Assembly: GCA_903828595.1 (NCBI GenBank)
Contig: CAIKMS010000015.1
Span: 62,001 to 126,000 of the forward strand
DNA length: 64,000 bases
Reading direction: 5' to 3'
From: an uncultured Pseudomonadota bacterium
GTDB lineage: Bacteria; Pseudomonadota; Gammaproteobacteria; Steroidobacterales; Steroidobacteraceae
Position 1 is the stretch's first letter, and each line of letters begins with the position of its first letter. A program made the translations under genes and the position numbers. Positions 10,964-21,259 of the stretch are shown piece by piece. The notes beneath the pieces are model-generated. The model was not told the origin of the DNA and ran no database searches. It was given only the letters and a program-made list of their open reading frames with translations.

Positions 10964-10968
10964 GGTTG

Positions 10969-13044
10969 TTAATGATTTAGGTGTTGATCCAACCAACCCA
11001 AAACCTCACGATGCCAGCGCAGCGAATTTTCAGGCTTCAAAACCCAATGGTTTTCGTCCGGGAACACCAATAGCTTCGACTCAATGCCACGACGCTGCAG
11101 GGCCGTGAACGTCGACAGGCCTTGCTCCAGCGGTACACGAAAATCCTGCTCGCCCTGAATCACTAACATGGGCGTCTTCCAGTTAGCGACGAACTTGGAG
11201 GGAGAGAACTTCTCATAGAGTTCCGGTGCAGCAAAAGCCGGGCCTGCGTGCTCCCACTCCTCGAACCACAACTCTTCCGTGCTGTAGTACATGGCACGCG
11301 AATCAAAAATGCCGTCGTGGTTTACCAGGCAGCGGAAGCGATCACTCCAGTTTCCGGCAATCAAATTGATCATGTATCCGCCGTAACTTGCCCCCAGCGC
11401 ACAGACACGATCACCGTCTAACCAATCAAAGCGGCTTTGGGCTGCCGCCAAACCTTTTTTCAGGTCTTCTAAAGGCTTTCCACCCCAGTCGCCACTAATC
11501 GAATCGGTAAACGCCTGCCCGTAGCCGGTGGATCCATGAAAATCAATAAAGACTACGGCATAACCGGCGCCGGAATAAATCTGTGGGTTCCAGCGATAAC
11601 TCCAGCCGTTACCAAACGATCCTTGGGGGCCGCCATGAATCAAAAAAGCCACGGGGTATTTTTGTCCGGGCTTGGCATTCCAGGGCTTCATCACATAGCC
11701 ATAGACAGTCTGGTTAGCAGCCCCTTGAAAGCTAAATTGTTCGGCAGCGCCAAACTGAACGTCCGACAAGGCCTCACGATTCACCTGCGTAAGACGAAGG
11801 GCATTACCCCCCTTTAGATCCACCGAATACAGTTCGGCCGGGGAACTTAAATGGCTCTGCGTGTAGAGAATTTGCTCGGCGCTTACATCAAAGCTCTCTA
11901 CCGTGCCAGCTTGCGTTAATCGCAGTACTGCGCCGTTCCTTGCATCAATCCGAAACAAGGGCTCTTGGCCGGTGTCTGCGGTCTGCACGATCAGTGCACT
12001 GCCGTCTTTGGTCCAGCGATAGCTCGCCACCGAATGATCCCAATCGTTAGCCAGCGCTCGACGCTTACCCGTAGCGACATCCAGCAACACCAAATGAAAT
12101 CGGTCTGCCTCAAATCCGGCTCGATCCATCGCTTTGTAAGCCAGAGTACGGCCGTCGGGAGAAAAACGAGGCTCGGCATCGGACGCCAGGTTATCCGGCG
12201 TTAGATTAACGGGAGCACCGCCCGTGACCGGCGACTGATACAGATCAAAGTTTGTTGACCAGGCTTCTGCTTTGCCAGCAACACGCACCGCATAAACCAG
12301 TGTCTTCCCATCGGGACTAAACGTGTAGTCCGACTCATCACCAAAGGGCTTGCCCGGCACGTCCCCGTCCAAACTGCCGGAAATATTGATTGGTTCACCC
12401 TGAGTGCGACCCTCAGCGTCTAGTTTGAGCGTGAACAAGACCGAACGGCGGCTATCCGACCACGTGTCCCAATGGCGCACAAACAAAGCGTCATACAGGC
12501 GCGCCTGACTCTTAGCATCAGCGAGGTTTTTTAACCTATCGCGCGTACAGACCAACGTCTCACAATCGCGAAACACCGACAAAGAAACCGCCAACCGATC
12601 ACCCTGTGGCGCTAGCTCAAAGCTCTCCACGTCCAACGGCAAATCGGTAATTGGCACAGCCTCGCCGCCGTTAAATGACAGCCGCCAAACCTGGCTTGAT
12701 CCAAACCGACTCGATAAAAAATACAGCGCATCGCCACTGGCTGACCAGCGCGGGTCACGGCTACTTGACACCTCGCGCGTCAGGCGTTGCAGAGTGGGCG
12801 TACGGCCCAGCGTCATCACATAGATTTCCGTGTGACCCCGATTTTTGGCCATGTCGGTATCGCGAACCGTGAAGGCCACACGACGCCCATCCGGTGATAA
12901 AACCGGCCCCGACGCGCGCCGCAGGCGCACCAGGTCATCCGGCGTCAAGCCGCGGGGGTTAGCCTGTGTGGGTGATGACAACACCACAAACAGCAGCAAA
13001 AAACTCAACGCCTTAGCCAACAGGATCCACCACAACCGCGCCAT
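10969..13044 (-). CDS. Exported S9 family (prolyl oligopeptidase) peptidase
   Basis: About 691 residues. A beta-propeller (roughly 50-420, with WD40-like TFSPDGKTLVYAVR and RFSPDGRTLAYKA repeats) is followed by an alpha/beta-hydrolase peptidase domain. The catalytic Ser is in GASYGGYM near 553, the Asp in IQGEQDFRVP near 635 and the His in PDENHWVL near 665, so the triad is complete. The start at 13044 has GGAG 8 bases upstream and a signal peptide (ARLWWILLAKALSFLLLFVV, cleavage near TQA-NP). An in-frame start at 13089 would add 15 residues ahead of the signal. It resembles dipeptidyl or acylaminoacyl peptidases and is probably periplasmic. Confidence 0.92.
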   Translation of the reverse strand: MARLWWILLAKALSFLLLFVVLSSPTQANPRGLTPDDLVRLRRASGPVLSPDGRRVAFTVRDTDMAKNRGHTEIYVMTLGRTPTLQRLTREVSSSRDPRWSASGDALYFLSSRFGSSQVWRLSFNGGEAVPITDLPLDVESFELAPQGDRLAVSLSVFRDCETLVCTRDRLKNLADAKSQARLYDALFVRHWDTWSDSRRSVLFTLKLDAEGRTQGEPINISGSLDGDVPGKPFGDESDYTFSPDGKTLVYAVRVAGKAEAWSTNFDLYQSPVTGGAPVNLTPDNLASDAEPRFSPDGRTLAYKAMDRAGFEADRFHLVLLDVATGKRRALANDWDHSVASYRWTKDGSALIVQTADTGQEPLFRIDARNGAVLRLTQAGTVESFDVSAEQILYTQSHLSSPAELYSVDLKGGNALRLTQVNREALSDVQFGAAEQFSFQGAANQTVYGYVMKPWNAKPGQKYPVAFLIHGGPQGSFGNGWSYRWNPQIYSGAGYAVVFIDFHGSTGYGQAFTDSISGDWGGKPLEDLKKGLAAAQSRFDWLDGDRVCALGASYGGYMINLIAGNWSDRFRCLVNHDGIFDSRAMYYSTEELWFEEWEHAGPAFAAPELYEKFSPSKFVANWKTPMLVIQGEQDFRVPLEQGLSTFTALQRRGIESKLLVFPDENHWVLKPENSLRWHREVLGWLDQHLNH

Positions 13045-20935: not shown

Positions 20936-21259
20936 TGGTGGGCCTGCTCGGATTCGAACCGAGAACCAAGGGATTCACTCTGCCCCACCGTTTCCGATGG
21001 GAGTGGACTATCTCTTCACCCGCGACCTTCAAGGCCGGTAGGGTGCGGGATGCTCTAGCCTGTTATTAAGGGCACTATAGCCCTCAGGTAGTCTCTGCAC
21101 CTTCCGACGGTGTACCGTCGGCTCGGCTCAGGATTGCCACCAGCTTTATTTCTTAAGCTGAAGGGTTCCCTGAGTTCGTCCCGTCCACTTCGCGGCTTTC
21201 GCCGTGAAGGCACCATTATTCTGATGAGTCCCCTGCTCTAACCGTTGAGCTACAGGCCC
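20936..21259 (-). tRNA. tRNA-Ile(CAU), interrupted by a group I intron
   Basis: Exon 1 is 21259-21224 (36 nt) and exon 2 is 20975-20936 (40 nt). Joined, they give a 76-nt tRNA: acceptor GGGCCTG/CAGGCCC, D-stem GCTC/GAGC, anticodon stem GGGGA/TCCCT with loop CTCATAA, T-arm CTCGG-TTCGAAT-CCGAG, discriminator A and encoded CCA. The CAT anticodon, the loop and the overall sequence resemble the minor tRNA-Ile of E. coli (ileX type), whose C34 is converted to lysidine by TilS to read AUA. The intron sits after anticodon base 36. The gene lies antisense between two plus-strand genes, with rmuC starting 100 bases beyond its 5' end. Apparent protein frames across it are spurious. Confidence 0.93.
20976..21223 (-). 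ncRNA. Group I self-splicing intron (248 nt), IC3-like, in tRNA-Ile(CAU)
   Basis: All core elements read on the minus strand. P1: exon CAT plus intron C pairs with GGTG (21211-21214), giving the U-G pair at the 5' splice site. P2: GAAA-capped hairpin 21188-21209. P3: CGGGA (21179-21183) with TCCCG (21046-21050). P4: CTCAGG (21169-21174) with CCTGAG (21127-21132), inside the Q-type AATCCTGAGCC. P6: 7-bp hairpin 21104-21121. P7: GACTA (21089-21093) in the R element GTGCAGAGACTA with TAGTC (21006-21010) in the S element AAGAGATAGTCC. P8: CACCC/GGGTG. P9: GAAA-capped hairpin 20984-21001. The intron ends in G. It encodes no endonuclease. An extra stem (21059-21088) lies between P7 and P3. The site matches the Azoarcus tRNA-Ile intron. 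Confidence 0.92.

Follow-up and report, generated by a model that had tools for sequence, protein, structure and literature searches.

Does an intron that interrupts the same tRNA, at the same site, as a well-known ribozyme belong to the lineage of that ribozyme? The question is raised by a locus in the 64,000-nt stretch of DNA analyzed here (the window), in which the initial annotation had proposed a group I intron within a tRNA-Ile(CAU) gene and, by pointing to the Azoarcus ribozyme, had implied kinship with it. The Azoarcus ribozyme lies after the anticodon CAU of the same tRNA. The place in tRNA-Ile(CAU) is already known from beta-proteobacteria, and it is the lineage that is new. On the evidence set out below, it is quite probable that a phage-related group I intron of the P7.1 type splits this tRNA-Ile(CAU) and excises itself before TilS acts, and that a distinct IC3 lineage shares the site elsewhere.

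A group I intron after U36 of tRNA-Ile(CAU)

The gene is read from the minus strand (21259-20936), where halves of 36 and 40 nt join into a 76-nt tRNA-Ile(CAU) with an encoded CCA, and the spliced 76 nt fold as a single tRNA with the anticodon CAT, as had been proposed. The exon and intron coordinates (Table 1) agree with the initial annotation in placing a 248-nt insert after base 36 (U36), and its assignment to group I passed an Infernal-type check against Rfam, in which RF00028 matched the window at 21236-20984 over the full model with 64.5 bits (gathering score 50; E 4.7e-14). Nowhere else in the 3.09-Mb draft genome does RF00028 match at E <= 0.001. The remark that standard tRNA searches would miss or misread the gene also holds, because ARAGORN run without introns found no tRNA across the window and, with introns allowed, misplaced the junction by two bases and called the gene Gln(CTG).

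Table 1. Features of the interrupted tRNA-Ile(CAU) gene in the window, and the corresponding phage locus (helix percentages are cells paired in the alignment of 34 homologues)
Feature	Position	Strand	Basis
5' exon, tRNA-Ile(CAU) nt 1-36, anticodon CAT at 21226-21224	21224..21259	-	joined fold
Group I intron, 248 nt, P7.1 (phage-like) type, terminal G = 20976	20976..21223	-	RF00028, profiles, tree
Internal guide GUG, pairs with anticodon CAU = P1, U36-G wobble at 5' splice site	21211..21213	-	34/34 invariant
P2 hairpin, GAAA loop	21188..21209	-	8/8 counted pairs change on both sides, 90.4%
P3: 5' strand 21183-21179, 3' strand 21050-21046	21046..21183	-	100%, invariant
P4, P5, P6, P6a	21100..21174	-	P4, P6 and two P5 pairs 100%; P6a 99.6%
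P7 (guanosine-binding helix): 5' strand 21093-21089, 3' strand 21010-21006	21006..21093	-	100%, invariant
P7.1 hairpin, between P7 5' strand and P3 3' strand	21059..21088	-	9 pairs, 100%
P8	21017..21045	-	98.8%
P9.0: 21004-21003 with 20978-20977	20977..21004	-	pairs in 34/34
P9, GAAA loop	20984..21001	-	94.9%, 6/7 pairs change on both sides
3' exon, nt 37-76, CCA encoded	20936..20975	-	joined fold
Klebsiella jumbo-phage split tRNA-Ile(CAU), in tRNA cluster	L392 2502-2812; also L393, L394

Structure and covariation

To examine the structure, 34 window-type tRNA-Ile genes (15 from relatives and 19 from a scan of named genomes) were aligned. As RNAalifold did not recover the P3/P7 pseudoknot on this alignment, the fold was written by hand (P1 to P9, the P3/P7 pseudoknot, P7.1, P9.0 and the tRNA stems) and its pairs were then counted. 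Across the 34 homologues, 94.1% of 3055 cells were paired, and 35 of the 90 pairs changed on both sides; the covariation score was 0.274, compared with a shuffled mean of 0.104 (sd 0.005). When the partners were slid by one to three columns, pairing fell to 35-47%. The claim that the core helices P1 to P9 are all present was borne out by this count. The acceptor, D and anticodon stems were paired in 100% of cells, and the pairs of P1, P3, P7 and P9.0 formed in every homologue. The P1 pairs C34-G, A35-U and U36-G and the intron pair C1-G10 were invariant in 34/34; one more P1 pair (the fifth), which the window sequence had suggested, failed across the 34-gene set and was dropped. In helix 8 (P5 with P5a), only 48.7% of cells were paired, and the drawing of P5a fits badly, since that region varies in length.

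One P9.0 pair is A-U in 16, G-U in 11 and G-C in seven of the 34 homologues and the other is C-G in all of them; P9.0 thus stays paired throughout despite the variation, and the 3' splice site is fixed by it. In P7.1, three of the nine pairs change on both sides; this hairpin is common to cyanophage psbA and Vibrio-phage terminase introns, and none was seen in the short (IC3-like) tRNA introns.

Affinity with phage introns

In a 2014 review, P7.1 is one of the elements that separate group I classes, and the Azoarcus tRNA-Ile intron is presented with its structures under the label IC3 (PMC3984707); in a second paper, a cyanophage intron is placed in subgroup IA2 by its having both P7.1 and P7.2 (PMC3428280). 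The window intron scored 116.0 bits with a profile of phage introns and 46.8 bits with one of IC3 tRNA introns, and all 34 window-type introns favored the phage profile, by 32.6 to 84.3 bits. The phage profile consisted of 98 sequences, namely 94 of at least 120 stretches that a scan of viral contigs for the P7.1 motif gave and four named phage regions, with one viral tRNA-Ile intron (L230) among them. This set had been fetched by the P7.1 motif and then by the tRNA-Ile profile, which favors likeness, and therefore P7.1 was excised and the profiles were re-scored, with 14 of the 98 phage sequences left out for want of the excision motif. The window intron then scored 84.3 bits as phage type and 51.9 bits as IC3, and 34/34 still favored the phage profile (median difference 39 bits, least 6.5). 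A blastn search of the window gene against named phages returned 11 records, which belong to cyanophages (psbA introns), to a Vibrio phage (an intron of its terminase gene) and to crAss-like phages, with 93.3% identity over 45 nt for S-PM2. The excision and these hits of the window itself answer the sampling bias in part; some source records may be shared between the sets, since the contigs of L171 and L051, and likewise those of L188 and L377, have the same length. The T4 introns td and nrdB, considered as close relatives, were rejected on partial matches of 12.4 bits or less.

IC3 introns are not known to have a P7.1 between P7 and P3. In the window intron the hairpin is present and covaries, and the best profile is the phage type; both the hairpin and the core shared with phage introns indicate a phage-like P7.1 (IA-like) intron. 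By contrast, the Azoarcus sequence, which was absent from the IC3 profile, scored 113.6 bits as IC3 and 9.5 bits as phage type. The initial annotation was right that the sequence differs from that of Azoarcus, and the kinship that it implied is not supported by the profiles with and without P7.1 or by the tree built after excision. The two are alike in the guide GUG, which the small Azoarcus ribozyme, itself without a reading frame, also has, and in the features weighed in the next paragraph. The ends of the introns also differ, the window intron running from C to GTG and six bacterial short-type tRNA-Ile introns beginning with A and ending in CAG, CCG or CGG. These six carry the IC3 label by our own assignment, from their likeness to the Azoarcus sequence.

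An alternative reading is that the window holds an Azoarcus-type (IC3) tRNA-Ile intron merely lengthened, for example by a gained hairpin. The identity of tRNA and site, a similar core and a match to the Azoarcus ribozyme at 132 of 187 aligned positions (70.6%) would suit such an origin, whereas the persistent preference of all 34 introns for the phage profile in the absence of P7.1 argues against it. Moreover, the six short-type introns are themselves 79.7-85.1% identical to the Azoarcus sequence; with the IC3 profile, of which they form a part, their scores are 102-121 bits. Lengthening of an IC3 intron is thus unlikely, and the trees considered below bear on it from both sides.

Distribution in bacteria

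RF00028 matches were found in 24 of 59 related genomes (the window's own included), 27 in total. Sixteen of these, in 16 of the 59 genomes, interrupt tRNA-Ile(CAU) after U36, 15 being of the window type and one (L066) of the short type. The other 11 were read as five in tRNA-Leu(UAA), two of which tie with Phe in ARAGORN, one in tRNA-Lys(CUU) and, from the flanks as judged by eye, five in 23S rRNA. An exact empty site was present in 24/59 relatives and both patterns together in 0/59; neither pattern was found at the given stringency in 19/59, including a member of the window's genus (G002). Within genus g31, the intron is present in G055 and the empty site in G041. A wider sample of the class covered 369 genomes, and at least 24 of them, the window's own among these, had an interrupted tRNA-Ile(CAU), a lower bound since the pattern demands a base other than A after CAT and misses introns that begin with A. 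The patterns for the class sample and for viral contigs share this demand, and the six bacterial short-type tRNA-Ile introns begin with A; the absence of short-type introns from the 369-genome sample therefore carries no meaning. In all 24 class-sample introns, the window's included, the phage profile outscored the IC3 profile. Such an interruption is not rare, either in these relatives or across the class.

The scan of named genomes, with a motif fitting both kinds of P7 region, yielded at least 119 stretches, of which the first 80 (81 matches) entered the profiles and trees. Among these first 80 stretches listed, the ACCTG kind, which opens P7.1, was in tRNA-Ile(CAU) in 19/19 cases, and the other kind was in tRNA-Leu(UAA) (34), tRNA-Ile(CAU) (5), tRNA-Thr (4) and tRNA-Arg(CCU) (3); 11 of the 81 matches had no tRNA nearby and five were uncertain. 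Under simpler rules, 8/39 matches in the other 39 stretches listed were of the ACCTG kind; both tRNA-Ile(CAU) marks accompanied seven of these, and in the eighth (L194) the 5' half fell at a contig end. Twenty-four of the 27 ACCTG records listed bear the names of gamma-proteobacteria or their clades, among which we count K189A and Woeseiaceae, and three are named just Proteobacteria. Four of the five short-type tRNA-Ile records listed bear names that we take to be beta-proteobacterial. A whole-gene blastn search of plasmids gave no match. The neighborhood tells little, as rmuC adjoins the gene in only 3 of 35 loci.

Several other group I insertions were seen along the way. In relative G010, two matches (L045 and L067) lie approximately 46 nt apart, apparently in 23S rRNA; L053 is a 651-nt match with a coding stretch, and L056 and L057 are similar 23S insertions. 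Group I introns also occur in other tRNA genes, read as tRNA-Lys(CUU), tRNA-Leu(UAA), tRNA-Thr(GGU, UGU) and tRNA-Arg(CCU), at L044 (G050), L060-L064, L090, L091, L101, L142, L143, L147 and L159. In L165 (Candidatus Omnitrophota), the intron motif lies just downstream of the 5' half of an apparent initiator tRNA-Met.

The same site in viral and phage tRNA genes

In the best viral match, L230, an intron of this kind interrupts a tRNA-Ile(CAU) after U36; ribonucleotide reductase genes of phage type lie on the same contig. A looser viral pattern gave 37 stretches, with both tRNA halves in 27 and no 3' half found in ten. The 27 inserts divide into 11 of the P7.1 type (nine distinct), 11 of the IC3 type (eight distinct) and five that are weakly IC3. 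When 12 loci were scored, RF00028 passed its threshold at 10 (Klebsiella phage records contributed two) and stayed below it at L332 and L339. Two P7.1-type introns, L330 (777 nt) and L332 (751 nt), contain an HNH_3 frame of 205 and 203 codons, respectively, which starts close to the 5' splice site and apparently extends into the intron core; L335 and L336 have the same start of a 751-nt intron as L332. Of 20 neighboring proteins, 13 matched PHROG families, tail fibre, terminase, RNA polymerase beta subunit and RNA ligase among them, and the four from L350 and L358 gave no PHROG match.

Similarly, two isolated Klebsiella jumbo phages, Muenster and KP13-7, have a tRNA-Ile(CAU) split by an intron of the phage-like kind amid annotated tRNAs, itself unannotated in both records; in Muenster, 231 nt separate two halves of 40 nt each. 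A like split tRNA-Ile is present in one further Klebsiella phage record (OU509535). In five viral contigs (L341, L345, L356, L361 and L363), the tRNA-Ile(CAU) inserts are 440-663 nt long, end in GTGGTA(A/C)G and score 25.8-59.0 bits as IC3; they are possibly a third kind at the same site. On the phage-like contig of L230, a permuted tmRNA match was also noted at 10966-11236 (RF04321, 62.3 bits).

One or two occupations of the site

The full tree was midpoint-rooted; it included 42 rows from phages, 40 of which had been sampled randomly, and 12 Leu introns out of 34, and the program warned of an unsettled bootstrap. In this tree the 34 bacterial P7.1 introns form one clade (100/99). The tree built after P7.1 excision excluded 10 of 118 rows, including L329, L338 and L360; in it the 75 P7.1-type rows that were retained fall on one side (98/99), a parting that speaks against a lengthened IC3 intron; warnings of long branches meeting apply to both trees. 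A single clade of both bacterial tRNA-Ile types was rejected on the excised tree (p-AU 0.0015). A single clade of all tRNA-Ile introns, bacterial and viral and of both types, survived the same test (p-AU 0.199), which leaves room for the lengthening. So do two viral tRNA-Ile introns that stand between the types: L329 (244 nt) and L338 (238 nt) prefer the phage profile (91.5 vs 50.3 and 89.7 vs 47.1 bits) yet branch within the IC3 part of the midpoint-rooted tree, with no P7.1 motif to excise. The lineages are therefore not cleanly apart, and these two introns are possible intermediates.

As the bacterial P7.1 clade stands apart from the viral introns, any transfer would be old or would have passed through unsampled phages. 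On the IC3 side, the viral L339 groups with Gulbenkiania (100/84), and some viral and bacterial tRNA-Ile introns are interleaved, which, from the sequences, would fit exchange between phage and host. Taken together, we infer that one anticodon-loop site was occupied twice separately, with phage tRNA genes as possible vehicles. A more far-reaching and tentative version, which we rate as a possibility below even chances, is that the U36/A37 position may be a hot spot reached by at least two lineages independently, that phage tRNA-Ile(CAU) genes, some with an HNH homing endonuclease frame in the intron, may have moved both between phages and bacteria, and that the gamma-proteobacterial family, the window intron included, may derive from one of these phage introns.

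Copy number, decoding and the proposed splicing

Whether the cell depends on splicing turns on the number of tRNA-Ile(CAU) genes. The draft (34 contigs, 94.1% complete) has 39 RF00005 matches; among these, as read with ARAGORN, there was no second tRNA-Ile(CAU), and the sole other tRNA with a CAT anticodon is elongator Met by sequence. A pattern for the uninterrupted gene, with a fixed D-loop length and up to two mismatches, likewise found none in the draft. The search for an uninterrupted copy that the initial annotation called for, by family and by pattern, thus came back empty, although a second copy could be missing, since the draft is incomplete and some expected tRNAs are absent from it. 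The 39 matches lack initiator Met, Cys, Trp, Ile(GAU), Ala(UGC), Thr(GGU) and Gly(UCC); these are probably gaps of the draft, and other interrupted tRNA genes may possibly lie behind some of them.

The spliced product has the marks of tRNA-Ile2. It is a 76-nt cloverleaf with CAT, and the pairs C4-G69 and C5-G68, which we take to be tRNA-Ile2 determinants, are invariant in 34/34 homologues. The genome contains a tilS match (139.7 bits; curated cut-off 93.6). In addition, AUA is in use, with 69 of 17481 codons in 32 long open reading frames of the window, chosen by length so that a few may be false, and at least one in 30 of the 32.

From these features a course of splicing can be proposed. In the transcript, the guide GUG would pair with the anticodon CAU to form P1, which would set the U36-G pair at the 5' splice site, and a guanosine held in P7 would attack 3' of U36. 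The freed U36 would then attack after the terminal G of the intron, positioned by P9.0, and ligation of the halves would give a normal tRNA. TilS would convert C34 to lysidine only after splicing, whereupon AUA would be read as isoleucine.

Two other readings of the locus were weighed. The intron could be a dead, unspliced relic in a cell served by another tRNA-Ile(CAU), for which the incomplete draft with its several absent tRNAs leaves some room. This is highly improbable, as the draft yielded no other copy, neither the tRNA nor the catalytic helices show damage and both are conserved across 34 homologues, and the exact empty-site pattern occurs in 0/16 genomes with the interrupted gene. The intron could instead be a domesticated switch whose slow or regulated splicing meters AUA decoding, a very unlikely role, to which an essential and apparently single-copy tRNA and a guide that reads the anticodon would lend themselves; the patchy presence, even within the single genus of G055 and G041, suits a neutral element instead. 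A self-splicing intron of phage affinity, removed before TilS acts, remains our preferred reading. By descent, it would be related both to introns in the protein genes of phages and to the same-site introns of phage tRNA-Ile(CAU) genes; the distinct lineage would be that of the Azoarcus-like IC3 introns, which occupy this site in beta-proteobacteria and in further tRNA-Ile(CAU) genes of viruses.

Relation to known introns and implications

Group I introns of bacterial tRNA genes are placed in cyanobacteria and in alpha- and beta-proteobacteria in one review (PMC4033280), and putative introns in tRNA-Arg and tRNA-Leu are described for Beggiatoa and Thiomargarita in another paper (PMC4853749). 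The latter are also split tRNA genes of gamma-proteobacteria, in tRNAs other than the one described here and of a type that the paper does not assign. In the tRNAscan-SE 2.0 paper (PMC8450103), group I introns are given as the reason why fMet or Ile2 calls are lacking in 36 bacterial genomes, and Acidovorax and Burkholderia are named for introns in tRNA-Ile2; these are likewise interrupted tRNA-Ile(CAU) genes, but in beta-proteobacterial hosts. Among phages, the psbA introns of cyanophages S-PM2 and S-SRM01 and the introns of the Vibrio phage 11895-B1 terminase gene and of the crAss-like cr6_1 have a like core with P7.1; unlike the window intron in its tRNA, they interrupt protein-coding genes or adjoin a gene for an endonuclease. 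The tRNA-Ile(CAU) introns of the viral contigs and Klebsiella phages share both the site after the anticodon and, in their P7.1-type members, the core. They differ in lying in phage tRNA clusters, and those that entered the tree, which the Klebsiella introns did not, fall outside the bacterial clade.

The 2014 review cited above states that phage introns had until then been found in protein genes despite the many tRNA genes of phages (PMC3984707). Introns in the tRNA genes of Lak megaphages were reported as unseen before and called enigmatic (PMC6784885); the available portion of that report names tRNA-Tyr and tRNA-Thr and contains no assignment to group I, as against the tRNA-Ile(CAU) described here. 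Within the portions available of the open-licence literature, a scope outside which most subscription papers fall, there was no P7.1-type intron in tRNA-Ile(CAU) and no group I intron in a phage tRNA-Ile.

The strongest new point is that, in bacteria and viruses alike, two kinds of intron share one anticodon-loop site. The origin of group I introns in the anticodon loops of bacterial tRNAs is an old question, and the occurrence of both kinds at one tRNA site in bacteria and viruses, two of the viral introns having endonuclease frames, provides a concrete and testable route for introns between phage and host. In addition, judging from the frequency in the class sample and the failure of ARAGORN, the tRNA that reads AUA may be missing from automatic annotation in several percent of gamma-proteobacterial genomes.
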